A stretch of DNA of 64,000 nucleotides, from positions 24,704,375 to 24,768,374 of the forward strand of contig CM077827.1 of assembly GCA_039720395.1 (NCBI GenBank). The letters run 5' to 3'. The notes beneath the pieces are model-generated. The model did not search any database. It had not been told where the DNA came from and saw nothing but the letters and a program-made list of their open reading frames with translations. The position numbers and the translations under genes were made by a program. Shown here piece by piece: positions 40,917 through 61,897 of the stretch (the first letter of the stretch is position 1; every line of letters begins with the position of its first letter). This DNA comes from Liquidambar formosana. Lineage: Eukaryota; Streptophyta; Magnoliopsida; Saxifragales; Altingiaceae.

Positions 40917-40921
40917 GTTTG
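40917..40921. repeat. Target duplication GTTTG, left
   Basis: GTTTG directly precedes the left LTR of the young element and recurs at 61783-61787 directly after the right LTR. Confidence 0.95.
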
Positions 40922-42900: not shown

Positions 42901-43406
42901 AATCATCCTATTCTATGCAAAAACCCTAACTTTAAAAGAGAGAAGAGGAGGAAGGGGGGAATACCTATGGTGAAGTATCCTTTTGCTGCTGTAGGGAGTC
43001 CTCCTTCTCTTGTGTACTGCTGGGAGTTCCTTCCTTCAAGCCTTCAAGCAATGCTCCAGCCCTCCTCCAAGCTTACTCTCACACTCTCTCACTCAAAGTA
43101 TAGGTTAAACTACCCTAAGGATGGCTGCCATAGCCTCCAAGTCTCACACATGCCTCACACTTCAGAATTTTCTCTCCAAGTGGCCTCTTCTATTGCTGAA
43201 GTATAAGGGGGTATTTATAGGGATTGAGGGAAAACCCTCAATGGTTGGGATTAAAACCCTAGGGATTGATCCAAGGGCTCTTAGAGGTTACCTTGGGGCT
43301 CAAGTAGGTCAAAAAGGGCTGAAATTAGGGTTAAATGGCGGCTAAAGGCGAGCAAATCCGAGAAAATAGGGAAGGAGCCGCGTCAAAGCTCAAAAAAGGA
43401 AAGTGG

Positions 43407-43486
43407 CTCGGGTGACCACCTGGGGCTGGGCGGCTAGCAGCCTGGGCCCAGGCGGCTAGCCGCCCAGGCCTGGGTGGTCACCCGAG
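43407..43486. repeat. GC-rich palindromic module, 3' LTR copy
   Basis: 80 bp from CTCGGGTGACC to GGTCACCCGAG. The two 40-bp halves are near-perfect reverse complements around GGGCCC, and each half contains a GGCGGCTAGC(C/A)GCC-type palindrome. Confidence 0.95.
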
Positions 43487-44193
43487 GCCATGTCAGCTTC
43501 AGCCCAAATTTGACCCTTTCAGCTTCCAAATGTGTTTCAGGGCCCAAATCAACTCCGATTTTGACGAAACGAAAGCCAAAACGACCGTGTTTCGAAGGGG
43601 AATGTAATTTGAGTCACTTGAGGGCAAGAAACCCTAGCCATGGCTGCATGGTTAGGTCCTACAAAGGTGGTTAACCGCTATGCCTCACCATCGCTTAGCT
43701 TTGGTATGCACATAGGGTTGCACCGAATGCTTTCCGATTCGAAATTCAACCTCCCTAAACACATTTGGGGATGAAATCAAGACCAATCAAGGTCAAATGA
43801 GTAGTCATAGAGTGAAAATCATGAACCAATTCGAGCTAACCCGAAGTAGGTCTTTTAGCCAACCTGAGCCTTATTGAGCCATTCTAATCCCGAACCTTCA
43901 ATTCATCAAATTGAACCTACAAATACCTCAAATGCAACCATATGAACTCCAATTGGCAACTTGGAGATCATTTCAAAGTCAAATGGAAAGTTTGTGATCA
44001 AAAAGACGATTATGCCCCTCAAGTCACAAAAGTTCTTATTAACCCTCAAGATCAACTCCAAATCGAACCAAAATTCATACACACCATCCTTAGGACCCTA
44101 GAAACTCAATGCAAAAGACTAGACTCAAAAAGGAAACAAAAAGACACATGCAATGACAAACCCTAGCTAAGGTGGCAAAAATGGGGTGTGACA

Positions 44194-44206
44194 GAAGCCC
44201 CTCATT
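44194..44206 (-). promoter_or_regulatory. Candidate polypurine tract
   Basis: On the minus strand, AATGAGGGGCTTC abuts the first base of the 3' LTR (TGTCACACCCC). This is where plus-strand priming occurs in LTR elements. The purine run is short. The older element has the same sequence at its LTR border. Confidence 0.5.
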
Positions 44207-44279
44207 GGTGAGCAAGTTTCACTTGCAAGCCAATGACCAAAAGAACAACCCATTTTTGCCCGGGGAATTGATTTCATCA

Positions 44280-45340
44280 AGACCCACTGGGGAAAAGAGG
44301 GTGAACATATCATTGAATTCTTCGAATTCATCATACACAAGCACAAAGGTACTCTTCATAAGTTCTATAGAACTCTTCTCATACTGTATACCAGTTTCAC
44401 TGGGGGACAAGATGAGGTATCCACAGCTTACATCGAACTTCATTCGATGAAAGGTCTTCCAATTCTATGCCAGTGACAACTGGCGAATGGTACGAGGTAA
44501 CATTATGCCATCAAGGCCATCCCAAAATATGAGAAAGATACATCCTTCTCATATTCAAACCGTCAAGGTTATTACTCAATTATCAAGGTAATCACATCCC
44601 ATACTGCACCAGTGACAACTGGTGAATAATACAAGGTATCCATAGCTTACATCGAACTTCGTTCGATGAAAGGTCTTCCCTTACTATGCCAGTGACAACT
44701 GGTGAATAGTACGAGGTATCCATAGCTTACATCGAACTTCGTTCGATGAAAGGTCTTCCCATATTACACCAGTGACAACTGGTGAATAATATGAGGTAAC
44801 ACTATGCCATCAAGGCTATCTCAAAATATGAGAAAGATACATCCTTCTCATATTCAAACCATCAAGGTTGTCATTCAGTTGTCAAGGTAATCACATAGCA
44901 CGAGGAAGGTCACGTCCTTCTCTCGCTCAAGTCAATCAAGGTAAACACATACCACAGGAAGCCATCAAGGCTATCTCAAAACATGAGAAAGATACATCCT
45001 TCTCATATTCAAACCATCAATGTTATCATTCAATTGTTACGGTAGTCACATAGTACGAGGAAGGTCATAACCTCCAATCAGGGTAAACACATACCATTGG
45101 GAAAGATCGCATCTTTCAAGTTATCAAGGTAAACATGTGACATGAGAAAGATTGCATCCTTCTCATATCAAACTCTCAAGGTGAACACATAGCATGAGAA
45201 AGATCGCGTCCTTCTCATAATCAAACCATCAAGGTCAACATAAATCATGGGAAAGATTGCATCTTTCAAGTCATCAAGGTAAGCATGTAATCATGAGAAA
45301 GATTTCATCTTTCTCTCACTAAGTCATCAAGACAAAGGTA
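44280..45340. repeat. Array of short hairpin repeats in the young element's 3' region
   Basis: Repeated short palindromic words include CATCGAACTTCGTTCGATG (44649 and 44729, 80 bp apart; a variant at 44428), CCAGTGACAACTGG (several), and ATGAGAAAGAT(n)ATCCTTCTCAT (at least six, from 44529 to 45300). They are separated by phrases such as CATCAAGGTAATCACAT. No long frame crosses it. The position corresponds to the ~101-bp array of the older element, but the sequence is unrelated. Confidence 0.85.
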
Positions 45341-45759
45341 AGCTTCTACTCACCAACACACAACAAGTTCACCAAGTCATCTCACATGGAGGCTATTCAT
45401 GCCTCAACTCGAACGCCAACTCATATAGGAGACACAATTATCTCATGAAAGCAATCATTCACATGCATATAGGGAAGGTATCTTTATCCCAAATGACAAC
45501 AAATCATAGTGATATAGGAGGGAATTCATCCCTAACGACCAAAACCATATGCATAGAAAGGGTTGTTCAACCCTACTAGCATGCCATGCCCTTACAAGGG
45601 CCATCAATGCAATCTCTTTCAAATCATTTCATGTCAAACAAAGTCAAGATATTTATTCATTTTTCAACCCAAAACAAGCTTGAGAATCCATCTCAAAGAG
45701 GGTTCAAGAGCGCGAATAGGCGAGCAAAGGCCAAACGGGCGCAACGGAGCGAGCAAGGG

Positions 45760-45837
45760 GGGGTGACCACCTGGCTGCTGGTGGCTTGCCGCCCAAGCCC
45801 AGGCGGCTTGCCGCCCCATGCTGGGCGGTTACCCGAG
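45760..45837. repeat. GC-rich palindromic module upstream of the PMD gene
   Basis: A diverged copy of the LTR palindrome, from GGGTGACCACCTGG to GGCGGTTACCCGAG, with TGGCTTGCCGCC cores in place of GGCTAGCC. It ends about 300 bp before the first ATG of the PMD gene. The sequence just before it (AGGCGAGCAAA) also resembles the matching flank in the LTR. Confidence 0.9.
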
Positions 45838-46134
45838 GCTAGGGTCCTCAAAATTCTGGGTTTTTAAACCCTTGACCCCCCATTTGATGCACACACACAC
45901 CCAATTCGAAAATAGAGAGTTTCTCTCTCTAGAAACCCATTCCATCTTCTCCAAACACTCACAAACACATTCTCATTCAAAGTTTCACTTGCAATTCAAG
46001 TTGTGTGCATGAAATAGCATCAAGAACAAGTCATTCAACAACAAAAACAAGCATCAATCATCAAGTTACAAGATCAAATTCATCATCCTTCTTATCAAAC
46101 CCATTTTTCTCACATACAAGCTCAACCACCAACA

Positions 46135-48796
46135 ATGGCTTCTAGCAATGATTCCAACATCAAGTATCCATATTATGTGATCAAGAATACATACAAGGCA
46201 CCAATCTATGATGCATCCCAAGACAAGGTGTTGCTTGAACCTAAGAAGCATCTCTCCTACCTCCATTCCCAACATGAGGTTAGTTCTTTCCAACTTAACA
46301 TGTTTATCATGAAATTTTGATTTCTATTGGATAAAATGCATTCCCATGATCTTCTTTTGATTGTTTCTATCATTGTTAAGCCAAGTTCATTGATTTGGCA
46401 AGGATTGAATGTGCAAAAAGCTTGTTTCCCAATGCTTGAGAAAAGATGCCCACCAAGTGTTTGATAAAATGCCAAAGAGACAAAAACATGTTCAATTCTT
46501 GAAAAATCGATTGGTTTGCATTGTAGAGCCAAGTCATATGGTCTTGGCAAGGATTTGATATACAAAAATCTTTCATTTCAATGCTTGAAAACAAGTCACA
46601 CACCAAGTGTTCGATAAAATGCCCGAAAGGCAAAAACATGTTCAATCCTTACAAAATCAATGAATTTGAATACACAAGGTCATGGGCATTCATTCCTAAT
46701 TCATTTCATGAATCAAAACCCATATTTTAAAACTTTTGGAAAACCATTTGAAATCAATTACCAATGCATGCCCAATATCTCTATGTTTTCAATGCTAACT
46801 CAATACACAATCTTTTGACATAGCCTAACTTCCAAAGTCTCCGTACAAGGACCTCAATAAAGGGGCTCATCTCTTGGTGGAGACATATGAATCATGCCCA
46901 ACCACGTGCTCGCAAGATAATAAAGAAGGCGGGTTTTGAGCCCTTCCTAGATGCTCTATGGAACGAGCAATGGGATAGGCAAGCATTATTTGCCTTGACA
47001 GAGCTATGGTGGGACACCACCAACACTTTCCATTTTAGCTTCGGGGAGATGACCATGACTCCTAAGGATTTCACCATGATAACTGGGTTGAGCTTGAAGG
47101 GCAAGCGCTTGGAATACTACGAACAAGCCAACATGGACCAGAACTACATAGTAGCTCTACTCGGGGTTGAAGCGGAACTGAGCCCAAAAGGTGTGCGCCG
47201 TACTTGGCTCTACAACACCTTTGCCACTGAAGAAGAGAGTGAGGGGACGGATCCCCAATACATTGTGAGAGCTTTCTTGCTCTACATGATTTCATGTACC
47301 TTCTTTGCGGGCACCAATGACATGGCTCGACTAGAGTTGCTAGCTAGCATGGAGGATGTGAACAAAATTGGGAGATACAATTGGGGTGGAGCTGCTTTCG
47401 CAAACATGTATCGCTCCATGACTGACATGTCCCGAGGAGTTGCAAAGAACTTTGGGGGACTTCCTTTCGTTTGGGAGGTAACAAAGAACATTCAATTCTC
47501 TATTATTTCCCGAAACTTAACACATACATGATTTCCTCTATATTTTTTGATTTTCCACAGATATGGTACTACGAGTACCTGAACATGTGTCGCCCGACTC
47601 TTGCTAGTGATGCCATGTCATGGCCCATCCTTCAGAATTATGCTCCATCTTGCTTGGCTACAAGAGCCTCCAATCGACATGATTATGCCCATGCAAGGGC
47701 ATATCTTGCCAGCTTGACTGCTGATATGGTAAAATCTTTCTCTCACTTTATCTTTTTTATCTTTCTTTTTTCATTTCTCATTTCAAACTCAACAGGTGGA
47801 ATGGGATCCATGGAGGCTGTGGGAGCATAGGCTTCCCGAGAAGTACTCCTCTTGTTTGGAGTTGACAAGCAAAAGGGTCCTCTTTGAAGGCCCCATAGGT
47901 AGATGCTGGTATCTTGGGGAGCGAGTCCTGAGACAAGTCCATGGAAATATGAATACAGCTGTGACACCTTCCATGCCACCAAAGAACATGAGGCACACTA
48001 GCCACCTAGTGGGGGATGAACTAGAAGAGGCTCTGAGGGGTTGGGATGCTGAGGGATTCACCTCCCCTCGCATAGAATACACTGCCTTCTGTCGACAATA
48101 TCTGATGAATCCTAGGGTCACTGGTCTCCCACCTCAAGGGGTAAGCTCCCCACACTCTTAGACTCTTTTTTAAGATTATAAGAAAGACTCCATTTGACAA
48201 GCATTTGAATTTCAGGGCCGACGGGCAAGGGGACACAGCTCCACAGTTGGATCTGCCACTGGGATGACTTACAATGACGAGGATGAGGACCTTGAAGGAA
48301 ATCAACCTCCACCCCTCCCACAACTAAATTGGTATGTGAACTTGTGCAGTGGGACAAAATTTGTGAAGACTGACATTACCCATCCACCATTCGATGAATA
48401 TCCCAAGATCGATCCATATTATGAGAATGTGAGTTCTAAACTCTTATCTTCTTGAAATTGGATTCTCTCATTATTGTTAACCATGTTTATACTTTCCTAG
48501 GTTCCACGGGAGTATGCCCAGGAATGCATCGAACTCAATGAAGGATTGAGGAGGGATCTTGTGCGAATGAGTTTAGAGAACTCAGTTCTGGAAGCACGCT
48601 TGAATCCCCAAGTGAGTGATCATCTTATTAGCTTTCAACTAGGATTGGCACCATTACCCTCCTAACTCATTATCTTTGTTTGCAACAGGCATCATCGTCT
48701 AATCCACCACAGGATATGCCCCCTTCTAGAGCACCTCGTTCAGGGCATGATGGAGCTGGGCCAAGTCGAAAGAGAAGGCCCACGGGAAATCATTGA
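46135..48796 (+). CDS. Plant mobile domain (PMD) protein, seven exons, inside the retrotransposon
   Basis: Exons proposed at 46135-46278, 46863-47477, 47561-47728, 47796-48140, 48216-48428, 48501-48611 and 48689-48796. All have GT-AG borders and all are multiples of three, giving about 567 residues and a TGA stop. Exon 2 shows PMD hallmarks: RKIIKKAGFEPFLDALW, ELWWDTTNTFHFSFGEMT and TPKDFTMITGLSLKG. Exon 3 begins IWYYEYLNMCRP and exon 4 begins VEWDPWRLWEHRLPEKY. The C-terminus is basic (PSRKRRPTG), a possible nuclear signal. PMD proteins such as MAIN and MAIL1 of Arabidopsis are nuclear and affect transposon silencing; PMDs are also found in transposable elements. The gene is antisense to gag-pol. 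The exon 1 border is the least sure part: the acceptor at 46862 has a weak pyrimidine tract, and the in-frame ATG at 46887 is an alternative start. Confidence 0.82.
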
Positions 48797-49048
48797 GTTT
48801 CACTCACCTCTTGTTAGGAATGTTTGGAACTTACTATCTTCTTGTCATGTACTAATTAGGAATTTCGATTCCCAACCTTGAACCTTTATTATGGATACTT
48901 GATGAATCTATGTTGAACTTTATTGCAATGATATGATCTTGTATTGAGTGAAAAATGGGCTTGAATCAAGCACAAAAAAGTCGAAACATCACAAACGGGC
49001 CAAACGAAGGCATAACAAGGCAAAAAATGGGCGAAACAAGACGGCGGC
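48797..49048. other. Spacer between the two antisense genes
   Basis: 3' flank of the PMD gene, with CTTTATT-type words but no clear AATAAA. It then runs into the flank of the next palindromic module. Confidence 0.5.
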
Positions 49049-49128
49049 CTCGGGTGACCACCTGGGGCTGGGCGGCTAGCCGCCTGGGCCCAGGCGGCTA
49101 GCCGCCCAGGCCTGGGTGGTCACCCGAG
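49049..49128. repeat. GC-rich palindromic module upstream of the DUF7745-like gene
   Basis: 80 bp from CTCGGGTGACC to GGTCACCCGAG, almost identical to the LTR copies but with both GGCGGCTAGCCGCC cores perfect. It ends about 87 bp before a TATA box. Confidence 0.95.
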
Positions 49129-49215
49129 CCCGAAGCGGTGTTTCGCCTGATTTTAGGAAACTTCCTATTTTGACGGGATTCCACCTTCCAAAACACGAAT
49201 TTCCGAATTTTTTCC

Positions 49216-49223
49216 TATAAAAG
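49216..49223 (+). promoter_or_regulatory. TATA box of the DUF7745-like gene
   Basis: TATAAAAG lies 49 bp before the ATG at 49272, suggesting a transcription start near 49245-49255 and a very short leader. Confidence 0.7.
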
Positions 49224-49271
49224 CACATCCAAGGGGTCTCAAACCCTACTAACATTCATTGAGAGCAAGTT

Positions 49272-50558
49272 ATGGAAGCCCTAGACAAACTCTTGAGTGA
49301 TTTTCTGAAGGTTATGAGTGCGGAGGCAAGGAAGGAGTTCAAGCGCTACTGCCTGGATCCGTTGTTTTCTTTGATGCATGTGAAGCTTGAAATCACTCTT
49401 CTCACTGCTGCTACATACTTTTGGGATCCCCAACTTCATGTATTCCGCTTCAACTATGAAGAACTATGCCCAACAATGGAAGAGTTCTGCGCTTTGTATG
49501 GAGTTTCACCTGTAGGACCTTTCATCCTCCCTACTCCACGCTCAAGTTACTTGATTTCCTTCTCCAACTTCCTTGGGATTTCTCAACAAGAGGCCTCCAT
49601 ATTTGTGAAGGATCACATGGTGAACCTTATGGAAATAGCAACTTCCTTCTTGGCTCATGATAGCAAAGGTACCCTGAATTTCAACCTTCCCACTCAACAT
49701 GCTCTTGCTTTCTGCTTGATTGGTCGCTTCCTTATCTCCACGGGGACTCTCTATGTCCCTATTCAAATATGCGAACTGATCCCTTTTCTTCTTGAACACA
49801 ACAACCTGATTCCCATAGTGCTAGCTGAAACCCTCAACAGTTTAGACAAAGTTCATGATATCCCACAAGCCCCATTAGGAGGGAGCCCCATTCTACTGCA
49901 GATGTGGCTTCTTGAAAGGCTTAATTTCTTATCTCCTGCCACCATTAATCCATACAAACCCCAACATTATTGTTGCCGTCGAGTTGAACTCCCTGGTCAA
50001 TTTTCTTTGAGGGAATGGTTGGGCTACTTTCACACACTCTCATGGCGAAACATTAAGTGGTTTGTCTTTATATGGGGATGCAAGGAACAAATTCTTCTTC
50101 GAACTTCTGGGTGTGCTATGGTCAAACTCATAGGGTTGAGGTCAACTTCATTCTATTGGACTTCAAGAATCCTTCGTCAACTGGGTGCCATGCAAACCAT
50201 ACCTACTTCTGTGGTATTTGATCATTCTGTCGAACCTGTGGGCCCCACAATGATTAAGTGGGCCAAGACTAGATGGACTGACCAACTGAAACTGACTCGA
50301 GTTGAAAACACTGACGGGCCTTATGTCATGAGCCCTGAATACAAGACATGGTTGAAGACTAGCTTGGGTGAAAGAGAAACCCTACACAGGGAAAGGATTT
50401 ATGACCTTATCAAGGACACAAGGCTAGGATTTTGCAGGGAAGACATTCTAGAAGCAGTGGAAGCAACACAGGCCCATGATTTACGAAAGAAGCGAAGACT
50501 TGAAAGAAAGGAGCAGAAAGCAAACCAAGAGACTCTGAAGAAGAACAAAAAGACTTGA
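49272..50558 (+). CDS. DUF7745-like protein encoded antisense in the retrotransposon
   Basis: An uninterrupted 428-residue single-exon frame. It contains KLEITLLTAATYFWDPQLHV, FRFNYEELCPTMEEFCALYG, GGSPILLQMWLLERL and FIWGCKEQILLRTSG, and has a very basic tail (RKKRRLERKEQKANQ). The pattern (conserved FWDP, LCPT-EEF, GSP-LLQ-WL) fits the DUF7745 group, plant proteins of unknown function often found in or near transposable elements. I do not know its role. It has its own TATA box, a 5' palindromic module and an AATAAA signal (50613-50618), so it looks like an independent gene. It runs towards the integrase end, antisense to gag-pol. A decayed homologue sits in the older element at 62041-63318. 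The family assignment is from memory of its sequence pattern. Confidence 0.8.
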   Translation: MEALDKLLSDFLKVMSAEARKEFKRYCLDPLFSLMHVKLEITLLTAATYFWDPQLHVFRFNYEELCPTMEEFCALYGVSPVGPFILPTPRSSYLISFSNFLGISQQEASIFVKDHMVNLMEIATSFLAHDSKGTLNFNLPTQHALAFCLIGRFLISTGTLYVPIQICELIPFLLEHNNLIPIVLAETLNSLDKVHDIPQAPLGGSPILLQMWLLERLNFLSPATINPYKPQHYCCRRVELPGQFSLREWLGYFHTLSWRNIKWFVFIWGCKEQILLRTSGCAMVKLIGLRSTSFYWTSRILRQLGAMQTIPTSVVFDHSVEPVGPTMIKWAKTRWTDQLKLTRVENTDGPYVMSPEYKTWLKTSLGERETLHRERIYDLIKDTRLGFCREDILEAVEATQAHDLRKKRRLERKEQKANQETLKKNKKT

Positions 50559-50885
50559 AGACCTTAGAAATAGGATATCTATGGCATGTCAATAGTTCTT
50601 TTATCTAACACCAATAAATTGCTATGTCAATTAATTAGTTCTAAATGAATTGCCAATAATAATTCAATTTTGAGATTTGTTGTCGTGGTGTTGTTTGGAC
50701 CGCACCCAAGGTAACTTTATGGGCTGCCTACGTATCCCCATCCTTTTTTCATTTTTTCTTTTCTTTTCATTTTTTTTTCATTTTTTTTTTTTTTTTTTTT
50801 ATAGGAATGGGGAATCAGGCCCTCGTAGTTCAAATGCCTTAACTTTTGCCTAGGCCGCCCTTATGGGTTTTCAACCTAGCAGGCC
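50559..50885. other. Spacer between convergent DUF7745-like gene and integrase
   Basis: Contains AATAAA at 50613-50618, a T-rich tract at 50745-50800 and the 3' flank of the pol frame. The two genes converge here tail to tail. Confidence 0.6.
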
Positions 50886-53399
50886 TTACACATAGTACTT
50901 CTTCAATTGATCCAAATTGGTAGGACGAGCGAACTCAATTCCATCCAAATCCATGAGGCGAACAGCCCCTGCTGGTAATATCTCCTTGATAACATACGGG
51001 CCACCCCAACTTGGCTTGAACTTCCCTCGTGGATCAAAAATTGGAGCTCTGATTTCTTTCAACACCAAATCCCCTGTCTTCAAACCTCGTTCTTTGACAT
51101 GCTTGTTGAATGCTCTTGCAACCCTTCGCTGATATCCCTGCACATGATACAAGGCCCTCAATCGCCTTTCATCGAGCAATGCCAGCTCATCATAACGGTT
51201 CTTAACCCAATCTGCTTCTGCTATCCGACTCTCCATAGCAACCCGTAATGACGGTACCTCCAACTCAATAGGCAAAACAGCCTCCATCCCATACACCAAG
51301 GAATAAGGGGTAGCCCCTGTTGATGATCTCACAGATGTTCTATAGCCCCACAAGGCTAATGGCAACTTCTCATGCCAATCAGTGTAGGTGTCAGCTGTTT
51401 TCTGTAATATCTTCTTAACATTCTTGTTGGCGGCCTCCACTGCCCCATTAGTCTGTGGGCGATAAGGGGAGGATAGATGGTGCACTATATTGTATTTCTG
51501 CAAAAGTTCCTTGGTTTCTTTCTGAAAGTGCTGACCATTGTCTGAAATAATCTCATGGGGTACCCCATACCTGTAGATAATGTTGAGCTGTATGAACTGT
51601 GCTACCTTCTTGGCATTCAGGGTCTTGAAGGATGCTGCCTCTACCCACTTAGTGAAGTAATCAATAGCTACCAAGATGTACTCATGCCCATTGGAGGCTT
51701 TCGGCTTAATCTGCCCAATTATATCTATTCCCCACACTGCAAACGGCCAAGGTGACGACATACTTGTCAAAGGCATGGAAGGTAAGTGTTGTCCATTAGC
51801 AAAGACCTGACATTTGTGACACTTCTTAACATGTGCATGGCAATCTCTCTCCATTGTAGACCAATAGTAACCCAACCTCATGATCTTCTTAGCTAGCATA
51901 TAACCATTCATGTGCGGTGCTCCAACTCCTTCATGGATTTCACTAACAAGACGTTCGGCTTCTTCCTCGGTGACACGCAACAGATGGACCCCGTCGTATG
52001 ACCTCCGGTATAGCTTTCCTCCACACAAAACATAGTGACTTGCTAGCCTCCTCAGTGTTCTCCTATCAATGCGGGATGCTCCTTCAGGATACTCCCTTTC
52101 CTCGATGAATTTCATGATGTCATAGTACCAAGGATGGCCATCTTTCAACTCTCCTTCTCGAATAGAACAGCAATACACGGGTTTTTCTCTACATTCTATC
52201 ACCAACGGTTTTACATTCCCACCATCCGGGATTTCCACCATGGAAGCTAGAGTTGCCAAAGCATCGGCGAACTGATTCTTATTTCTTGACAAATAATTGA
52301 ACTCTATTTCCACAAATTCTTTAGTCAAGGCTTCTAAGTAGGCATGATACGGTAGCAGCTTCTCATCACGAGTCTTCCACTCTCCCTTTATCTGGCAGAT
52401 AATCAGTGCTGAATCTCCGAAAACCTCTAACTCTTTGATCCCCAATTCTAGTGCAGCTTCCAACGCGAGGATGCAGGCTTCATACTCAGCAATGTTGTTG
52501 GTTGCTTCAAACCCTAGCTTAACTGCCAAGGGTGTAAATGCTTCTTCAGGTGAAACCAATAGGACTCCTATCCCATACCCTCTCTTATTTGCAGCTCCAT
52601 CAAAGTATACTTTCCAACTCTTCCTTCCAATCTCCAGGACATCCTCATCGGGGAATTGATCATTAAATTGTTCTGATGACGCCACAGGGCAGCTAGCCAA
52701 GTAATCTGCAATGACACTTCCTTTTACTGACTTCTGTGTTACATACTTTATGTCGAATTCATTGAGAAGAATCGACCATCGGGCAGTTCTGTAGGACAAG
52801 ACCGGCCTTTCTATCAGGTACTTCAGTGGGTCCATTCGGCTTATCAAGAAAACCTCATACGACATCATGTAGTGACGTAGTTTCTGAGTTGCCCATACCA
52901 AAGCCACACAAGCCTTTTCTATGGCATTGTACTTCACCTCATAATCTGTCATCTTCTTGCTTAGATAGTAAATGGCATTCTCCTTTTTCGACCCCTCAAG
53001 GTACTGAGCTAGCATAGCTCCCGTCGCGGTTTCAGTGACCGTCAAGTATAACAATAACGGTTCACCTTGTCGCGGGGGAACTAGAATTGGTGGATTACTC
53101 AAATACCTTTTAATAGTCTCAAAGGCTTCTTGACATTCTTCATTCCATACCTTCGGCACACCCTTCTTAATCAACTTGAAAATCGGTTCACACACCATAG
53201 TCAAATTAGCAATGAACCTACTTATGTACTGAATTCTCCCCAAGAACCCTCGAATCTGCTTCTCTGTGCTAGGCGGCTCCATCTCTACAATGGCCTTGAT
53301 TTTTCCCGGATCGACCTCGATTCCTCTCTGAGTAATCATGAATCCTAATAGCATGCCTGCAGTGACACCAAAGGCACATTTCTGTGGATTCAACCGCAA
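50886..53399 (-). CDS. Retrotransposon pol, part 2: RT end, RNase H, second RNase H, integrase
   Basis: 837 codons, continuing the frame of 53415-54356 after a TGA stop. In order: the last part of RT (LRLNPQKCAFGV), the classical RNase H region (ATGAMLAQ, YYLSKKMTDYE), and a second, archaeal-type RNase H (VYFDGAANKRGYGIG, NIAEYEACILALEAAL, VFGDSALIICQIKGEW). Integrase follows with its H-H-C-C finger (HEGVGAPHMNGY through CHKCQ), the catalytic WGIDIIGQ and IISDNGQHF, and RPQTNGAVEAANK. It ends GPYVIKEI and LDQLKKYYV, with no chromodomain. The dual RNase H is diagnostic of the TAT lineage. These functions copy the RNA and insert the cDNA. Confidence 0.93.
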   Translation of the reverse strand: MRLNPQKCAFGVTAGMLLGFMITQRGIEVDPGKIKAIVEMEPPSTEKQIRGFLGRIQYISRFIANLTMVCEPIFKLIKKGVPKVWNEECQEAFETIKRYLSNPPILVPPRQGEPLLLYLTVTETATGAMLAQYLEGSKKENAIYYLSKKMTDYEVKYNAIEKACVALVWATQKLRHYMMSYEVFLISRMDPLKYLIERPVLSYRTARWSILLNEFDIKYVTQKSVKGSVIADYLASCPVASSEQFNDQFPDEDVLEIGRKSWKVYFDGAANKRGYGIGVLLVSPEEAFTPLAVKLGFEATNNIAEYEACILALEAALELGIKELEVFGDSALIICQIKGEWKTRDEKLLPYHAYLEALTKEFVEIEFNYLSRNKNQFADALATLASMVEIPDGGNVKPLVIECREKPVYCCSIREGELKDGHPWYYDIMKFIEEREYPEGASRIDRRTLRRLASHYVLCGGKLYRRSYDGVHLLRVTEEEAERLVSEIHEGVGAPHMNGYMLAKKIMRLGYYWSTMERDCHAHVKKCHKCQVFANGQHLPSMPLTSMSSPWPFAVWGIDIIGQIKPKASNGHEYILVAIDYFTKWVEAASFKTLNAKKVAQFIQLNIIYRYGVPHEIISDNGQHFQKETKELLQKYNIVHHLSSPYRPQTNGAVEAANKNVKKILQKTADTYTDWHEKLPLALWGYRTSVRSSTGATPYSLVYGMEAVLPIELEVPSLRVAMESRIAEADWVKNRYDELALLDERRLRALYHVQGYQRRVARAFNKHVKERGLKTGDLVLKEIRAPIFDPRGKFKPSWGGPYVIKEILPAGAVRLMDLDGIEFARPTNLDQLKKYYV

Positions 53400-53414
53400 G
53401 TTGTACTTCTTTGC

Positions 53415-54264
53415 TCACTCCAGGAACCTTTCCAGTGCCCTGAAGTGTCCTTCTCGATCCACGGACTTCACGATCATGTCGTCCACATATACTTCCACCT
53501 CCTTATGGATCATGTCGTGCAGCAATGTTGTAGCAGCTCTCTGATAGGTAGCCCCGGCATTTCTCAAACCGAACGGCATCACTTTGTAACAATATGTTCC
53601 CCACTGTGTGATAAAGGCCATTTTCTCCATATCTTGCGGCGCCATCTTTATCTGATTGTATCCGGAAAACCCATCCATGAAAGAGAGGAGCGCATGTCCT
53701 ACAGTGCTATCTACCAATACATCAATGTGGGGCAAAGGGAAATCATCCTTAGGGCTTGCTGCATTAAGATCTCGAAAATCCACACACATCCTCACTTTTC
53801 CATCCTTTTTAGGCACGGGAACTATATTGGATAACCACTCGGGATACTCCACAACCTGTAGGAACCCCGCATCGAGTTGTTTGGTTACTTCCTCCTTTAC
53901 CTTCAATGCCCACTTGGGTTTCAATCTTCTCAATTTTTGCTTTACCGGCTTTTTAAGGGGATTGGTGGGGATGAAGTGCTGCACAATGTCTGGATCTATG
54001 CCGGGCATGTCTTCATAAGACCATGTAAAGGCCGTTATGTTGGCCTTTAGGAGGGCTATAAGCTTTTCTTTTTCAAGTGGTGAAAGGGTTATCCCAATTT
54101 TAATTATCTTTGGCAATTCATTTGTCCCTAAATTGATTGATTCCAATTCATCCATGTTAGGTTCGGTGACACCCCTTTTCCTTCGCTCGACGAGCTCCGG
54201 GGGGACGTCATTCCTAGGATCTATATCCATGCCATAAATATCCATAGAAGAGAAAAAGGAAACA
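53415..54264 (-). CDS. Retrotransposon pol, part 1: reverse transcriptase, ending at a TGA
   Basis: The open stretch entered from the predicted intron acceptor at 54265 carries the RT core: a linker (LSPLEKEKLIALLKANI), FIPTNPLKKPVKQKLRRLKP, GFLQVVEYPEWLSNIVPV, RMCVDFRDLNAASPKDDFPL, LLSFMDGFSGYNQIKM, PFGLRNAGATYQRA and the catalytic YVDD (VYVDDMIVKS). It stops at TGA (53415-53417) between YVDD and the thumb region. The same frame resumes at once, so this is a single nonsense break in an otherwise well-preserved enzyme. The open frame extends rightwards to 54356, but that part is likely intron. Confidence 0.9.
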
Positions 54265-54441
54265 CTGCAAGCAAAATATATAAAAGAAACACACTTCATT
54301 AAAGGAACAAACAAAAAGACACAAACTTGAAAAGGAAACAAAACTTGGTGCCACAACTATGCAACGACTCCTAACTCCACAAAGTGGGATAGGCGGACAC
54401 ACTTTATTGAAAGCAGGAAAGACTCTAACTAAGGAACCTAC
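54265..54441 (-). other. Predicted intron between protease and reverse transcriptase
   Basis: On the minus strand a GTAGGT donor (starting 54441) overlaps the gag-pro stop codon, and a pyrimidine-rich TTGCAG acceptor ends at 54265. Removing these 177 nt would delete the stop and bring gag-pro into the same frame as RT. Ogre-type elements are known for a spliced intron at this place. Confidence 0.75.
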
Positions 54442-57400
54442 AAGCTACTATCAGGCAGGTCATGATCTTCTTCTTCAAGGATTTCTGCAATGGTTCCATC
54501 TTCTAGGTACCAATTGTGAAGTGGCATGGTTGCATGGTGAATTGACGAATCTTGGCAATCTTCTGTTGCTGACTCCCCTAAAGTAAGAACCATATCTTGG
54601 AACATGGTAACCATGGTTTCAGAATCCATGTGCTCCACCCAGTCTTCTTCTTTCTTCTCCCAATAACTGTCATTGATGGCTTCATCATCCACGATTTCGG
54701 CGGTGATTGGATACCACTCGGTGAAGAAAATCTCAAATCCTGGGATTCTGATCTTGGTTGTTGGATTGAACATAGGCTCTGGGAACCCACAGTACAGGAA
54801 GTCATCCCCTTCCTTGATGAAATAGCCATTCAGAGTCGGCCTGTATGGTGAAATCTTAAAGTCTGGCACCCTTCCTTCTACTCTAGCTTTTCCCTTCTCC
54901 TTATTCCTCCTTGTCATTTCTGCATAGTCATTCTTAGTGGGCTCATATCCTAACCCAAAAGTGTAGGAAACAACCCGACTTTGAATAGAATGGGGAATTC
55001 CTTGTTGGCGACGCCCTAGGCCTATACCCGGGAAGAAATTCATTTTCCGCATTATCTCACCAACATGTAAATTACCATGGGGACAATAGTCAAGGGGGAT
55101 CAGTTCTTCCTTTTCCAACTCCTTTTCAATGCATTGCACATACTCAAACCCCGACAAGGGTATCTCAACTGATTCTGGTTTTATTTCGCATATGGGTACA
55201 CCCGCCATTTTCAAATCATAATCCCCTTGAAGTGTAACAACGGCTCCCTCATGTGGGAACTTTACCTTTTGATGCAATGATGATGGTACAGCCCCAGCGG
55301 GATGAATCCAAGGCCTTCCCAATAACAGATTGAAACATGACGGCACATCCAGGACTTGAAACTCTACTCTGAACTCCGTGGGTCCCATGATTAAAGGTAG
55401 AGTGACCATCCCAATTACTTCTCTACGGGTATTATCATACGCCCTCACTGTCTGCCCAGATGGGGTGAAATCAGTGGGCCCCAAGCCCAAAACAGTTGCA
55501 GTTCTCAAGGGACATACATTCAACGCGGAACCATTATCAATCAAGACCGTAGGAACTCTCTTCCCCATGGTATCAACAGTTATATGCAAGGCTTGGGAGT
55601 GGCTTGGCCCACTCTTAGGTAAGTCCGCCTCTGTGAACACTATAGTGGAATTCTTCGGAGCAGGGTTTACTAGATTCACCAATCCCTCAGGGGACAAATC
55701 AACCGGAACCTGTATCTGGTTTAACAACTTCAACACTGTCTGTCTGTGTTTGTGAGAGGCCATAAGCAAGCCCCATATGGTGATATTGGCATTGGTCTTC
55801 TTCAATTGTCGGAGTACTTCATCCTCTTCTTCTTGCACATCAAGGCGCTTATCTAACTCACCCAGTGGATTATCAGATTCCAAGTGCGGAGGCTTGAAAT
55901 GGCGGCCCCCTCTTGTCATGTGGTCTACTTCTTCATCACTAGCCCATATGTCATCAATTTCATTTGTGTCACCCATCAGGTCATCCCATTCAATCATGTC
56001 AATGTCCTCCATCTGCACCTCTTCGGGTATATCATCCCAGCCCGTAGGAATTATGGGCTCACTTGGCAATGGATCAGAATAAAGCACATAGTAATCAAAC
56101 CTCCCCGAAGGTTCTCCCAATAACCCCACTTGAGGGTCTCCTGCTTCGTACCTTTCTTTCAACTGCTGTTGGATGGACTTCTTTGGCAATTGCAGGGTCT
56201 TTTGATCAATGAGGTCTTGAACGACCTTTCTCAACATAGCACAGTCCTCAGTGTCATGGCCGGGTATACCATGGTATTGGCAATATTGATGGGGTGTTTG
56301 GGGTCTTGGCTTTGGAGGGTGAGGTATGATAAGGCCTTGGTTACAGCATTGGTGAAAGGCTTGGGCCAAGGACATGGGTAATGGAGTGTATTGTCTTATG
56401 GGTAGGCAAGGTCGAGATGGGTCGGCTTCAATGGCATTTATGGAGTTGGATGAATTATGAGAGGGAAGTGGATTTTGAGTGACATTTGGGCGATTTGGTG
56501 GAGTTGGTGGTGAGATGATTTGCTTGTCAAGTAAGTCTTGGATCTCATGCCTAAGGCGATAGCAACGGTTGGTTGAGTGGCCTTTGGCTTGGTGAAATTT
56601 GCAGTATTCATTCTCATTGTAGCTCTTGGGCAATGGGTTTGGTGGTGGTCTTGGGTCGAGAGGTTTCAACAGGCCTCGGCTTTTTAGCTTTTCAAGTACT
56701 TTCTCAAGTGGCATATGCAGCTCGGTGAATTGGCGAGGTGGGTTGGTGTCATTTAGGGAGATAGGTTGAATGGGTTGGGCTATGGCATTGACCTCGGCAC
56801 TGTTTTTCCCAGCAAAGTTCGGCCTGCGGCTCTTTTGGACTTCTTCTGTCTTGATTGACCCATCGGCAATGGCATCCTCAACTTGTGTACCTGCTCCTAT
56901 AAGAGCCTTGAAATTAGGGAAGTAGTGAGCAAAGAGGTGCTTGTGATACACCGGCAATAGGTTCTTAACCACCAACTGAATCTGATCTTCCTCATTCGGT
57001 CTATCTGCCATTCTCGAGGCCTTTTGCCTCCACCTTGTAATGAAAGCAGAAAAGGTCTCATTAGCCCCTTGTTTTGTGGTCTCTAGGTCCCTTCTTGTGA
57101 CATCCACCTCAGTGTTGTACTTGTAGTGCTCTGAAAACTCATTACATATGTCCTCCCAAGTTCGGGTTCTATTCTCATCCAAGGCTAGGAACCACTTTAA
57201 GGCAGAAGTGGCTAGGGTTTCATGGAACATTTGGGCCAAGAGTTCATCTGTCGCTCCTCGAGGGTGCATAGCTCGCATATACATCTTCAAATGGGTCTTA
57301 GGGCAACCCGTTCCATCAAACTTTTCTAATTCAGGCATCTTGAATTGTAGTGGAATACGAGCTTGAGGAAACAAAGATAGGGTACGTACATCCACCATGT

Positions 57401-57773
57401 CATCTGTCCTACGGATTCCCTTTATAGTTCTCTCCAAGGCTTCTACCTTGCTAGCCAACACAGAGTCTGTATCAGAGGTCTTCCCCTTACTTCCCCCTTC
57501 CAGGTTAAAAACTTCAGGTGATTCATTCCCTTTGGGCTGAGTACTTCCCCCATCATTGGTCTTAGTGCCCTCTCCAGACTGGGTCCCATTTTCGGTGTTA
57601 TCTCCCGGGGTACGGCCATTATTCTGTTCGGGTTCGGACATCTTATGTTGGATATCTTGGGCCATTTTCAATGCCCTCTCGGATACATCAGTGGTGTAAT
57701 CAAGTTTGGTCATGATAGCTTTCAAACAGGTCTCAACATCAAAACCCCCTTCACTAGTTGCTTCATCGGCCAT
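54438..57773 (-). CDS. Retrotransposon gag-protease polyprotein
   Basis: Positions count from 57803, where the open frame has a GTG codon; the first ATG is at 57773. The gag domain lies at roughly residues 150-315 (QMFHETLATSALKWFLAL, TWEDICNEFSEHYKYN, FITRWRQKASRMADR). Two CX2HX4HX4C knuckles follow at about 401-414 and 508-521, the protease active-site motif (VLIDNGSALNVCPL) at about 753-766, and a G-patch-like segment (VGEIMRKMNFFPGIGLGRRQ) at about 914-933. Gag packages the element RNA and the protease matures the polyprotein. The frame is otherwise intact over about 1110 codons and ends in TAG at 54438-54440, inside the predicted intron. An in-frame TGA lies upstream near 57845, so the true N-terminus may have been longer. 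Confidence 0.93.
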   Translation of the reverse strand: MADEATSEGGFDVETCLKAIMTKLDYTTDVSERALKMAQDIQHKMSEPEQNNGRTPGDNTENGTQSGEGTKTNDGGSTQPKGNESPEVFNLEGGSKGKTSDTDSVLASKVEALERTIKGIRRTDDMVDVRTLSLFPQARIPLQFKMPELEKFDGTGCPKTHLKMYMRAMHPRGATDELLAQMFHETLATSALKWFLALDENRTRTWEDICNEFSEHYKYNTEVDVTRRDLETTKQGANETFSAFITRWRQKASRMADRPNEEDQIQLVVKNLLPVYHKHLFAHYFPNFKALIGAGTQVEDAIADGSIKTEEVQKSRRPNFAGKNSAEVNAIAQPIQPISLNDTNPPRQFTELHMPLEKVLEKLKSRGLLKPLDPRPPPNPLPKSYNENEYCKFHQAKGHSTNRCYRLRHEIQDLLDKQIISPPTPPNRPNVTQNPLPSHNSSNSINAIEADPSRPCLPIRQYTPLPMSLAQAFHQCCNQGLIIPHPPKPRPQTPHQYCQYHGIPGHDTEDCAMLRKVVQDLIDQKTLQLPKKSIQQQLKERYEAGDPQVGLLGEPSGRFDYYVLYSDPLPSEPIIPTGWDDIPEEVQMEDIDMIEWDDLMGDTNEIDDIWASDEEVDHMTRGGRHFKPPHLESDNPLGELDKRLDVQEEEDEVLRQLKKTNANITIWGLLMASHKHRQTVLKLLNQIQVPVDLSPEGLVNLVNPAPKNSTIVFTEADLPKSGPSHSQALHITVDTMGKRVPTVLIDNGSALNVCPLRTATVLGLGPTDFTPSGQTVRAYDNTRREVIGMVTLPLIMGPTEFRVEFQVLDVPSCFNLLLGRPWIHPAGAVPSSLHQKVKFPHEGAVVTLQGDYDLKMAGVPICEIKPESVEIPLSGFEYVQCIEKELEKEELIPLDYCPHGNLHVGEIMRKMNFFPGIGLGRRQQGIPHSIQSRVVSYTFGLGYEPTKNDYAEMTRRNKEKGKARVEGRVPDFKISPYRPTLNGYFIKEGDDFLYCGFPEPMFNPTTKIRIPGFEIFFTEWYPITAEIVDDEAINDSYWEKKEEDWVEHMDSETMVTMFQDMVLTLGESATEDCQDSSIHHATMPLHNWYLEDGTIAEILEEEDHDLPDSSL

Positions 57774-58499
57774 GTCTGACTGGTTGGTAGAATCAATCTT
57801 CACTAAGCGCCCTTGCTGGTCGCGGATCCAAGCCAGTACGTCTTCTCACTCCTCTATGAAAGGGAACAATCAGTCTCTCATCCTAAGGGTATGTCCTAGG
57901 CTTCCATATTTGTCTCAATGACTTCACGCCATATATACTCAATTAGTCCCTTTTAATCCAATCACCTTTACAAGGGTCATGGGCGAAAGGTACGTATTAA
58001 GGATATAGGGTGCAAAGGTCCTCTATTAATTTTTCCATTAAGCACATCACAAACACGGTCATGATATCATTACAAACAATGTGGGTGCATAAGGGTGAAA
58101 CCATAGTGTCCTACAAGTCTGTCTATATGGACTAATGATAAGGGTAGGCTGGGGTCCTTCACTTGCTTGAGCAATCTTTATACCTAACCACATGTGGCAT
58201 CAGGAACGCCACGTGGGTCCAGCAGTACGTGATTAACTCATTTAATATACCCAAGGGCAAGCCCAAGGGTACTTGGCAAGAGAGGTTGAGAGCTTTCGCC
58301 CCAACTCATGGAATCAGGAAAACCAAGGTTGAGGCTAGGCCCGTCAGTGGCAAGGGACATCGATCCTAACATGCAAGAGTTTGCGCACACAATGCAATAA
58401 ATGAAAGCACACAATCAAGCGGATGCAATGTGATTGATTTTAATTAAACAAAAGAAATTAACTTAGCCCAATCAAATTGTATAGAGTCTAGCCCACAAA
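57774..58499 (-). other. 5' leader of the young element
   Basis: About 0.7 kb between the primer site and gag with no convincing frame. I see no ORF1 of the kind described upstream of gag in classical Ogre elements. Confidence 0.6.
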
Positions 58500-58517
58500 T
58501 CCCCAGTGGAGTCGCCA
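58500..58517 (-). promoter_or_regulatory. Primer-binding site
   Basis: The plus strand here reads TCCCCAGTGGAGTCGCCA, like a tRNA 3' end with CCA. Its complement, TGGCGACTCCACTGGGGA, lies 3 nt inside the 5' LTR. Ogre elements are reported to use tRNA-Arg; I could not check the tRNA identity. Confidence 0.85.
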
Positions 58518-60800
58518 GTTTGTGAACCCTAAAAAGCGAGTTAAGGGCCCACGGGGCGGTTTTAAGTTTGAAAAAGGAAAAGGAGTCGCCACCTTATTTT
58601 TTAAAGGAAACAAGGAAAACCCTAAAAAAACAGTTTTGTTTTAGGAAAACAAAAGATTGACTCCATGTTTAAAATGGTAAGGCAAAAAGTCTTTTGGAAA
58701 CCAGAGAATTTAGGGCTTCGGAGGCTAAGTTACGATATGGGAAGGTTCTAGGCAAAGCCTATAGGCACCCATATCGCCCTAAACGGTCTCTTAATTTAAT
58801 TGGGCTAAATCAAAGTTTTAATCACACACAAATCAACAATTATCATCACAAGACAGCATGCATATCATTCATTCATTCATCCATATAACCAAGTAAATCA
58901 AAGAAAAACAGAAAAAGAAAGAGGGAGAGGAGAAAACCTAGGATACTTAGTATCCTAGGGCGGACTTGAACATCACGAAGAGCGCCTACGTACCATGTAT
59001 AGAAATACATGGATCAAAGTCCACGTAGTTCAAAAGGGAATAGAGTTATAACCTAATCAAGGCCTATGGTAAACCCTAAGTTTCCTTTCAAGTAAAACAT
59101 GGTAAGTTTCCAAAATAAATGATTCTCAAAAGATTTTTGGTAAAATATGGAATTTTGATAAAAGATGGAAACTTTGATTTAAAAGGTATTTTTTATTGAA
59201 AGGATACTATAGGAATCACCATATTCCCCTATTAGGAAACAACCCTAGGGGGGAGAAAGGGAAAGTTTCAAAGAAAGGAAAGAAGGGTGAATTGGGGCAC
59301 CCTCATACCCTACTTACCTTAAGCAAAAGCAACCTGTCAAAGTAACCACCCTATTGCATAGGGTAATTACCTTATTTGTAAGATTTCATCTCACAATAGC
59401 CAAAATAACCACCCCATATTGGTGGGGTAGTTGCACCTGTTGTACCTGTCAAAGCACCTGCAATTTCCATGCAAACATACCAAAAATGCCAACCAAGCAA
59501 GCTAGATTCCAAATCAAGCCATTATCGTGCCCAAACATGGGCTAACACATGCTCAAAATATCATATCAAAGACAAATAACAGATCTGGACAGAATTGAAA
59601 TAAGGTTTAAAATCAACCACAAGTCATGCAACAACATGAATCATAAGCTAACTAAAACCCTAATTCAACCCTACATGCAATGACATGCAAAAAACCCTAA
59701 AATCAACTATATGAATGCTAGAAATATCATAGTTATCAAATATGCAGCACATATATATCAACCATGAAGAAAACACAAAGAAAAACCCTAAGCTATCATG
59801 CTATATGCTACTTTCCTAATACAAGGATGAATGAAACCCTAGAATCACAATTGTGCTCAAAATCACATAAAATAACTCTAAATCATGCAAAGCCCATCAT
59901 AGACATCATGCTAATCATGCATATTAATCAATAGAAGCATCCACACATGAGAAAAATACAAGCTTGCACATGAAATATAGCTATTCTAAACATAAACTCC
60001 ATTTCAGCACTAAGGAAACCCTAGAATCCCAAACATGCAGCAAATCACATGGAACATCATCCTAGCATACTAAACAGCCCATAAATATTATCCTAATCAT
60101 GCATACATTCAACAAAACACAATAAAAACATAAGCTCTAATATGCCAAAGAGTTATTTCATGCAGAAAACCGTTTTAAGCACCTAAGAAACCCTAAAGTC
60201 CCAAACATGCAGTAAATCACATGGAATAACATCCTAGCATACTAAACAGCCCACAAATATGATCCTAAACATGCATGGAAGCAACAAGACATGATAAAAA
60301 CACAAGCTCTAATATACCAAAGAGTTATTTCATGCAGAAAACCATTTTAAGCACCTAAGAAACCCTAAAGTCCCAAACATGCAGTAAATCACATGGAATA
60401 ACATCCTAGCATACTAAACAGCCCACAAATATGATCCTAAACATGCATGGAAGCAACAAGACGTGATAAAAACACAAGCTTTGATATGCAATCATCCTAT
60501 TCTATGCAAAAACCCTAACTTTAAAAGAGAGAAGAGGAGGAAGGGGGGAATACCTATGGTGAAGTATCCTTTTGCTGCTGTAGGGAGTCCTCCTTCTCTT
60601 GTGTACTGCTGGGAGTTCCTTCCTTCAAGCCTTCAAGCAATGCTCCAGCCCTCCTCCAAGCTTACTCTCACACTCTCTCACTCAAAGTATAGGTTAAACT
60701 ACCCTAAGGATGGCTGCCATAGCCTCCAAGTCTCACACATGCCTCACACTTCAGAATTTTCTCTCCAAGTGGCCTCTTCTATTGCTGAAGTATAAGGGGG

Positions 60801-60808
60801 TATTTATA
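60801..60808 (-). promoter_or_regulatory. TATA box of the retrotransposon promoter
   Basis: TATAAATA on the minus strand in the 5' LTR. The same box is conserved in the 3' LTR (43212-43219) and in the older LTR (38405-38412). Confidence 0.75.
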
Positions 60809-60995
60809 GGGATTGAGGGAAAACCCTCAATGGTTGGGATTAAAACCCTAGGGATTGATCCAAGGGCTCTTAGAGGTTACCTTGGGGCTCAAGTAGGTCA
60901 AAAAGGGCTGAAATTAGGGTTAAATGGCGGCTAAAGGCGAGCAAATCCGAGAAAATAGGGAAGGAGCCGCGTCAAAGCTCAAAAAAGGAAAGTGG

Positions 60996-61075
60996 CTCGG
61001 GTGACCACCTGGGGCTGGGCGGCTAGCAGCCTGGGCCCAGGCGGCTAGCCGCCCAGGCCTGGGTGGTCACCCGAG
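60996..61075. repeat. GC-rich palindromic module, 5' LTR copy
   Basis: Identical to the 3' LTR copy: CTCGGGTGACC to GGTCACCCGAG, 80 bp. Confidence 0.95.
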
Positions 61076-61782
61076 GCCATGTCAGCTTCAGCCCAAATTT
61101 GACCCTTTCAGCTTCCAAATGTGTTTCAGGGCCCAAATCAACTCCGATTTTGACGAAACGAAAGCCAAAACGACCGTGTTTCGAAGGGGAATGTAATTTG
61201 AGTTACTTGAGGGCAAGAAACCCTAGCCATGGCTGCATGGTTAGGTCCTACAAAGGTGGTTAACCGCTATGCCTCACCATCGCTTAGCTTTGGTATGCAC
61301 ATAGGGTTGCACCGAATGCTTTCCGATTCGAAATTCAACCTCCCTAAACACATTTGGGGATGAAATCAAGACCAATCAAGGTCAAATGAGTAGTCATAGA
61401 GTGAAAATCATGAACCAATTCGAGCTAACCCGAAGTAGGTCTTTTAGCCAACCTGAGCCTTATTGAGCCATTCTAATCCCGAACCTTCAATTCATCAAAT
61501 TGAACCTACAAATACCTCAAATGCAACCATATGAACTCCAATTGGCAACTTGGAGATCATTTCAAAGTCAAATGGAAAGTTTGTGATCAAAAAGACGATT
61601 ATGCCCCTCAAGTCACAAAAGTTCTTATTAACCCTCAAGATCAACTCCAAATCGAACCAAAATTCATACACACCATCCTTAGGACCCTAGAAACTCAATG
61701 CAAAAGACTAGACTCAAAAAGGAAACAAAAAGACACATGCAATGACAAACCCTAGCTAAGGTGGCAAAAATGGGGTGTGACA

Positions 61783-61787
61783 GTTTG
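61783..61787. repeat. Target duplication GTTTG, right
   Basis: Matches 40917-40921. Sequence to the right resumes the older element. Confidence 0.95.
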
Positions 61788-61838: not shown

Positions 61839-61897
61839 CTTGGGTGACCACCAAGCTTTGGGTGGCTAGCCGCCTAGGCCTGGGGGGGTCACCTGAG
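61839..61897. repeat. Shortened GC-rich palindromic module
   Basis: From CTTGGGTGACCACC to GGTCACCTGAG, with only one GGTGGCTAGCCGCC-type core. About 20 bp of the centre are missing compared with the 80-bp copies. Confidence 0.8.

Follow-up and report, generated by a model that had tools for sequence, protein, structure and literature searches.

Why should a single retrotransposon carry copies of one palindromic DNA module in front of promoters that serve different genes and face opposite ways? The question arises from a 64,000-nucleotide (nt) stretch of Liquidambar formosana contig CM077827.1 (positions 24,704,375 to 24,768,374; hereafter the window), where a young long terminal repeat (LTR) retrotransposon of 20.9 kb, a Ty3/gypsy element of Ogre/Retand-like type (40922..61782, minus strand), lies nested inside an older relative. 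Antisense to its gag-pol unit, the young element carries a plant mobile domain (PMD) gene and a DUF7745-like gene. A first-pass annotation of the window had described a near-perfect palindrome of ~80 bp upstream of all three promoters, with halves that are reverse complements around GGGCCC and a TATA box about 190 bp downstream. Here we report that the module is conserved, tied to promoters and changed in an all-or-none fashion between relatives, and we argue, from its sequence, that it is probably a phased operator for one trans-acting factor common to the sense and the two antisense promoters.

Module copies and their anatomy

In the young element the module lies at 43407..43486 in the 3' LTR, at 60996..61075 in the 5' LTR, where it is 188 bp upstream of the TATA box TATAAATA (60801..60808, starting at 60808 on the minus strand), at 49049..49128 in front of the antisense DUF7745-like gene, whose TATA box TATAAAAG (49216..49222, plus strand, found at the same place in 19 of 20 copies) follows 88 bp downstream, and in diverged form at 45758..45837 ahead of the antisense PMD gene. 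Two copies persist in the older element, as first proposed, one in its LTR (38601..38680) and a shortened one before its DUF7745-like gene, a two-unit module of 59 nt that is 21 nt shorter than the others (61839..61897). Identity to the module's own reverse complement is 72/80 in each young LTR, 74/80 in the DUF7745-like promoter and 46/80 in the PMD promoter, and in the older element 68/80 for the LTR module and 26/59 for the shortened one. Ranked among all 80-nt palindromes of the window, the top four are the DUF7745-like copy (37 of 40 pairs), the two young LTR copies (36 and 36) and the older LTR copy (34); the next best, an AT repeat, has 32, and five mononucleotide shuffles of the window never exceeded 24 of 40 pairs. 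Symmetry in these four copies is therefore far beyond chance.

The PMD copy is different. It is 73% identical to the DUF7745-like copy and has its sub-sites at the same positions, but it keeps only 23 of 40 pairs intact, against 21.8 expected from random substitution, and thus has no excess symmetry. The initial description of a near-perfect palindrome accordingly holds for the LTR and DUF7745-like promoters and fails for the PMD promoter. GGGCCC is central only in the young LTR and DUF7745-like copies, and the TATA distance of about 190 bp is that of the LTR alone; it is 88 bp in the DUF7745-like promoter, while the nearest TATA-like site before the PMD gene is a TTTAAA at 26 bp from the module.

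What the copies have in common is a finer pattern. Across 53 distinct 80-nt modules aligned without gaps (a set that leaves out seven modules of 59, 79 or 81 nt, L057, the ACCGGT type described below, the duplicate L054 and the PMD module L013), the module consists of CTCGGG, three overlapping 24-bp inverted repeats at a 22-bp period, and CCCGAG. Each repeat pairs two half-sites of the form TRRCCRYC across an 8-bp spacer, with T at position 1 in 85% and C at positions 4, 5 and 8 in 96, 97 and 98% of sites (weighted). In the DUF7745-like copy the three units read TGACCACC-8 bp-GGCGGCTA (49055..49078), TAGCCGCC-8 bp-GGCGGCTA (49077..49100) and TAGCCGCC-8 bp-GGTGGTCA (49099..49122). Half-site columns hold 1.51 bits of information and spacer columns 1.09, and among 22 offsets the proposed phase ranks first. 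When nine modules are compared, representing three contexts in each of three subfamilies (y, o and g), half-sites differ at 18.5% and spacers at 39.7% of positions, the spacers differing more in 33 of 36 pairs; the half-site differences comprise 253 transitions and 40 transversions, those in spacers 181 and 162. Within the four full copies of the window, 13 of the 56 columns inside the words first read as conserved are variable, compared with 15 of the 24 outside them (p 0.0017), a contrast that rests on the PMD copy.

Shortened modules have lost about one or two 22-bp periods (44 nt in L072, 21 nt in 61839..61897 and 21 nt in L032:5018-5076), and slippage between the repeats would also yield losses of about whole periods in these three. 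An irregular 86-nt module with an extra GGTCACC inside was observed in an LTR (L057).

Symmetry of this kind could also mean that selection acts on the long hairpin as such, either as a DNA cruciform or as an RNA hairpin. The RNA fold is stable (-87.5 kcal/mol, z -11.8), and two-sided changes, which the first-pass annotation had suggested looking for, occur in 10 of 38 long-range pairs, amounting to 61 cells against 30.3 in shuffled and at most 27 in slid controls, an excess inflated by the relatedness of the copies. The ACCGGT type keeps partial symmetry with other letters (50/64, 40/66 and 56/75), and in a small number of divergent modules, L035 among them, long-range pairing is better than that within the 14-bp dyads. 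However, the same excess is found in the 24-bp units (44 versus 28.4) and in the nested 14-bp dyads (30 versus 11.3), so that symmetry is maintained without the long hairpin being singled out, and at long range neither the pairs changed on both sides nor their pair types are more numerous than in shuffles. Nor are the variable columns of the four window copies mirror-paired (10 versus 9.6), and G.T combinations (151 cells) against A.C (99), with 16 pairs favouring one combination and 14 the other, give no clear strand preference. With spacers that drift and a PMD copy no more symmetric than random, the conserved palindrome looks like six half-sites at a 22-bp period, and selection for the long hairpin seems to us quite unlikely. 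A strand-specific RNA hairpin was considered as the principal explanation and rejected: the five folded window copies are more stable on the plus strand, but the G.T/A.C lean is weak over the 53 modules.

A variant of the hairpin idea makes it a source of small RNAs through which the host silences the element, as has been argued for maize Sireviruses. That precedent and the stable fold speak for it, as does the report that PMD genes are phased small interfering RNA loci in tea (PMC10673657). In the part of the maize study drawn on here, Sirevirus palindromes are cited as cis-regulatory and rich in small RNAs, and Ty3 elements are described as generally without an obvious peak of microRNA-like structure (PMC10760457). 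From the element's side such a role predicts loss of the module rather than its conservation, and the module stands upstream of the TATA boxes; we regard this explanation as highly improbable.

Promoter address and constraint across the genome

The genome assembly searched for the module comprises 718 Mb in 370 contigs. An outer-arm pattern, CGGGTGACC-N45-75-GGTNACCCG, gave 4423 forward and 4457 reverse matches, with 0 and 1 in reversed controls, and a half-module pattern matched at 3094 forward and 3135 reverse places, its reversed controls at none. Flanks were taken for 60 places on contig 1, namely the first 40 modules of the half-module listing and 20 from the outer-arm listing that were chosen as new or divergent. 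All 60 fall in relatives of the young element, 52 in LTRs and eight in DUF7745-like promoters (36 and four in the first set, 16 and four in the second), in agreement with the early suggestion that the module would be tied to promoters. Three of the 16 LTR modules in the second set (L055, L056 and L066) are of a divergent ACCGGT/AACCGGTT type, with other inner letters and the same outer arms; they were assigned to LTRs because 71-73% identity extends over a distal stretch of ~180-200 bp and a TATA box lies at 199-200 bp. Searched with a profile, the first 40 loci together with the window yielded 58 modules, 40 of them in LTRs, nine in PMD promoters and seven in DUF7745-like promoters; the two left unplaced (L027:4821-4901 and L032:5018-5076) lie near locus ends.

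In LTR and DUF7745-like promoters the distance to the TATA box is also regular. The motif TATAWAW occurs 188-200 bp downstream of 51 of the 52 LTR modules, compared with six of 52 on the opposite side, and at 85-88 bp from nine of 11 DUF7745-like modules, compared with none of 11 on the opposite side; both sets include the window copies, and the LTR set combines 40 modules (first loci and window) with 12 more, leaving out L057, the ACCGGT type and L013. Since the module copies are related, this fixed address speaks for persistence and not for independent origins. A mobile palindrome resembling a miniature inverted-repeat transposable element, inserted three times, was considered and rejected: although the flanks of the different promoters have at most a weak likeness, with LTR and PMD left flanks scoring 28 against a shuffle maximum of 26 and no other cross-promoter pair exceeding its own shuffle maximum, the places are fixed across subfamilies. 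Dispersal of such a palindrome with no relation to promoters was not encountered, every sampled place lying inside the element family and the TATA distances being fixed in LTR and DUF7745-like promoters. In other collections, the pattern search of viral_contigs matched two GC-rich contigs, without such a palindrome, protein scans of viral_contigs gave none, and the pattern search of genome_contigs gave no match to the module.

Selection of copies by protein alone leads to the same module. From 5974 candidates, 98 DUF7745-like copies were scored, all at least 95% identical, and upstream DNA was taken from 20 of them; an intact 80-bp module stands at the same place in 19, and the twentieth (L072) has lost its 44 nt inside the module, leaving about one unit. 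The first-pass expectation of presence across family members is thereby confirmed, as is that of constrained arms. Divergence from the window copy is 8/1556 in the module (0.5%), against 189/3518 in the 5' flank (5.4%) and 55/3280 in the 3' flank (1.7%), so that the module is the least diverged part, yet more CpG-rich than its flanks. Among six PMD promoter stretches taken at the expected place, five match, with 9/400 differences in the module versus 104/1088 in the flanks; the sixth (L092, from the same element as L072) has no module match within the stretch.

The contrast persists between subfamilies. In DUF7745-like promoters, y and o differ at 5/80 positions of the module, 89/199 of the 5' flank and 44/143 of the stretch from module to ATG, and y and g at 17/80, 83/189 and 50/142, respectively, while the synonymous p-distance of the DUF7745-like gene between those subfamilies is 0.61-0.70. 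The two LTR types of the window are identical at 70/80 module positions and 755/1088 of the remainder, and over ten LTRs the mean pairwise identity is 0.806 for the module versus 0.693 elsewhere in a 940-bp region. The 60 places, the 19 of 20 gene copies and the constrained arms together sustain the original notion of a conserved module linked to promoters and common to sense and antisense genes.

A concerted switch and the candidate reader

How the half-sites change is as informative as how they are kept. In 41 modules at most one of the six half-sites has T at position 7; in the other 12, five or six do, and no module lies in between (n=53). The y and o representatives have C at this position in 36/36 sites and the g representatives T in 17/18, from LTR, DUF7745-like and PMD promoters alike, and the T type appears in modules of all three kinds despite their differing spacers. 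An outer-site pattern for the T type found three sets of three modules, all of T type and spaced 2.7-3.0 and 3.3 kb apart; judged by spacing and likeness, their contexts would be LTR, PMD and DUF7745-like promoters. The PMD representative of g (L041) adjoins an o-type LTR, which is more likely a nested LTR than part of a mixed element. At least three half-site types, CCGCC, CCGTC and ACCGGT, coexist in one genome.

A shared phased operator would account for these properties. With a period of 22 bp, about two helical turns, the three overlapping 24-bp inverted repeats would align their six half-sites along the same side of the DNA, where a dimeric or oligomeric DNA-binding factor could dock. 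The same factor, activating or repressing, might then be recruited to the gag-pol promoter in the LTR and to the antisense PMD and DUF7745-like promoters, so that sense and antisense expression would respond to one signal. The array is symmetric and would therefore work for promoters facing either way.

Several observations weigh against this interpretation. The patterns used to choose the 60 places require that the arms be intact, the 20 gene copies belong to the nearest relatives (at least 95% identical), and the counts come from related modules and are not independent. The phase test was run after the pattern had already been seen. Between the young and old LTRs of the window alone, changes fall at 6/56 positions inside the conserved words and 4/24 outside (p 0.48); in four of 45 LTR pairs the remaining sequence is better conserved than the module, and conservation as high as the module's is seen in three other windows of the LTR. 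A clear TATA box accompanies only one of eight PMD modules. We know of no plant factor that fits TRRCCRYC in all module types. Modules of the GCCGCC type, including those of the window, contain AGCCGCC, the core of the GCC box, which is an ethylene-response factor (ERF) element, whereas the CCGTC type has AGCCGTC instead. An ERF/GCC-box operator was for this reason rejected as the common explanation, the CCGTC type being without the core.

Likeness among the modules might also be kept by copying, through template switching or gene conversion between places, instead of by selection. LTR and DUF7745-like modules differ at one position within subfamily y and at six within g, versus 17-19 between y and g; seven of 16 young-type LTR modules (such as L050) have C at position 33, as DUF7745-like copies do; and the left flanks of LTR modules bear a weak likeness to those of PMD modules, as described above. 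The other nine of those 16, besides the window's two, have A at position 33, a base found in none of the 23 DUF7745-like copies that include the position, and in subfamily o the LTR and DUF7745-like modules differ at nine positions, more than their y-o counterparts (5-6). PMD modules share half-sites but not spacers with other modules, and since their spacers are unlike those of LTR and DUF7745-like modules, copying of whole modules explains the common half-sites less easily than does one reader. Copying as the cause is in our judgement unlikely; it is possible that one ancestral module in each subfamily was the source of the shared half-sites, by descent.

If the module is an operator, its reader might be encoded by the element itself, in which case a PMD or DUF7745-like protein would form a self-regulating circuit. 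The DUF7745-like gene (49272..50558, plus strand) is open over 428 amino acids (aa) and matches the Pfam families PMD (1.2e-13) and DUF7745 (3.7e-13). The PMD gene (46135..48797, plus strand) has seven predicted exons that in the splice model give an open frame of 580 aa, with a Pfam PMD match (8.5e-25) in the second exon; survival of its introns through retrotransposition would be expected if only sense RNA is copied. Nonsynonymous to synonymous rate ratios (dN/dS) of 0.08-0.11 between subfamilies (311-312 codons) indicate that the DUF7745-like protein is under purifying selection, and a stop occurs in only 12 of the 98 scored copies. The two domains also occur together elsewhere: a Vicia villosa pol protein (P0068) is annotated jointly with a DUF7745 domain, and a Coffea homolog of the PP7 long form (P0011) has PMD and DUF7745 domains.

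The attraction of an element-encoded reader lies in that both antisense proteins are without known function here while the DUF7745-like one appears to be under purifying selection. All 60 pattern-sampled modules lie inside the element family, the C-terminal ends of both proteins, as read from the sequence, are basic, and the half-site switch is all-or-none. On the other side, a structure model of the DUF7745-like protein (mean predicted local distance difference test score 67.6) had no PDB match at E<=0.001 and no DNA-binding fold was found in it, and its divergence does not track the switch, the nonsynonymous divergence (dN) from the window copy being 0.136 in the switched subfamily and 0.131 in an unswitched one. 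For host PMD proteins, chromatin binding is left to further study in the relevant part of PMC7156037. As a special case of the shared operator, an element-encoded reader is a tentative possibility. A fuller version is doubtful: in it a PMD or DUF7745-like protein would recognize the phased half-sites at every promoter of the family that encodes it, and subfamilies would avoid cross-regulation by changing all their half-sites jointly.

The carrier element and its parallels

The young element is bounded by a 3' LTR (40922..44193) and a 5' LTR (58521..61782), both on the minus strand, with nine mismatches in 3263 aligned sites (99.4% identity), and by a 5-bp target site duplication, GTTTG, read from the sequence ends at 40917-40921 and 61783-61787; the LTR ends were taken by reading the termini, the LTR alignment extending one chance base beyond. 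Its pol polyprotein has the Pfam order RT_RNaseH (118-220), RVT_3 (271-389), H2C2 (482-537) and rve (557-653). Reverse transcriptase precedes RNase H and lies ahead of integrase, so the carrier is Ty3/gypsy, and a second RNase H (RVT_3) sits between RNase H and integrase. Domain order and the PMD gene fit the Ogre/Retand part of the Tat clade. A stop interrupts the pol frame in this copy, leaving adjacent open reading frames (ORFs). The best named plant protein spanning the full pol query is 63% identical, among 120 listed of 1268 pol relatives. The primer-binding site, TGGCGACTCCACTGGGG, presumably corresponds to tRNA-Arg.

The interval from the 3' LTR to the PMD gene holds tandem repeats (44374-45315) in which another small palindrome, CATCGAACTTCGTTCGATG, recurs several times, close variants included. 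In the older element a tandem-repeat array (39517-40728) extends between the LTR and the insertion site, and no PMD gene was noticed there, no dedicated search having been made. A host gene with a FANTASTIC FOUR domain lies at 14540-15667 on the minus strand.

The closest known parallel comes from Sireviruses, whose repeated motifs are palindromes built on a CGG-CCG core that lie upstream of both the LTR TATA box and ENV (PMC2829016). The same core recurs here, as GG-CGG-CTAG-CCG-CC in the window and GA-CGG-TTAG-CCG-TC in the other type. As in the part of the Sirevirus account drawn on here, the palindromes cluster upstream of the LTR TATA box (51 of 52 LTR modules), further boxes precede an accessory gene, the motif is CpG-rich, and its letters vary between families while the symmetry stays (PMC2829016). 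Sireviruses, however, are Ty1/copia elements described there as having 8-32 separate short boxes each (PMC2829016), whereas the present elements are Ty3/gypsy and have one fused array of three units with a 22-bp period per promoter, at a fixed TATA distance. Unlike the copies at the Sirevirus ENV gene, the extra modules here stand before the antisense PMD and DUF7745-like genes, and among the listed ORFs of the young element none of at least 150 aa lies in sense between the 3' LTR and pol.

Among Ty3/gypsy elements, Ogre members of the Tat group are described as having a PMD extra ORF in 57% of elements and a second RNase H between RNase H and integrase, and non-chromoviruses as having large LTRs and tandem repeats (PMC6317226). 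The young element shares the PMD gene, the second RNase H, the large LTRs and the tandem repeats, and differs in its promoter palindromes, which the sections of that account drawn on here do not describe (PMC6317226). Grande, with gene23, and Retand, with TRP28, have antisense genes between pol and the 3' LTR, as here, and a regulatory role has been proposed for them (PMC7264820, PMC11963269); the Grande antisense gene has its own promoter (PMC7264820). Their proteins belong to other families, and the relevant parts of these reports describe no module common to LTR and antisense promoters (PMC7264820, PMC11963269). PMD proteins have likewise been linked genetically to a promoter motif in the case of MAIN/MAIL1 and the DOWN motif, although MAIN and MAIL1, in the portion of the study used here, are host PMD-C proteins and not element genes (PMC7156037). 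Over titles and abstract openings in the open-access literature, subscription papers lying outside that scope, no such module was found in Ty3/gypsy elements with PMD genes. The principle is thus known from Sireviruses, and the module described here is its Ty3/gypsy, Ogre/Retand-like counterpart, an independent parallel to the Sirevirus boxes.

Our findings connect the main promoter of giant Ty3/gypsy elements with their puzzling antisense genes through a conserved DNA module, and they provide antisense proteins of unknown role with a concrete, testable DNA target. Numbering thousands in one genome and falling into three or more half-site types, the L. formosana modules form a natural series on how promoter recognition changes in a transposon.

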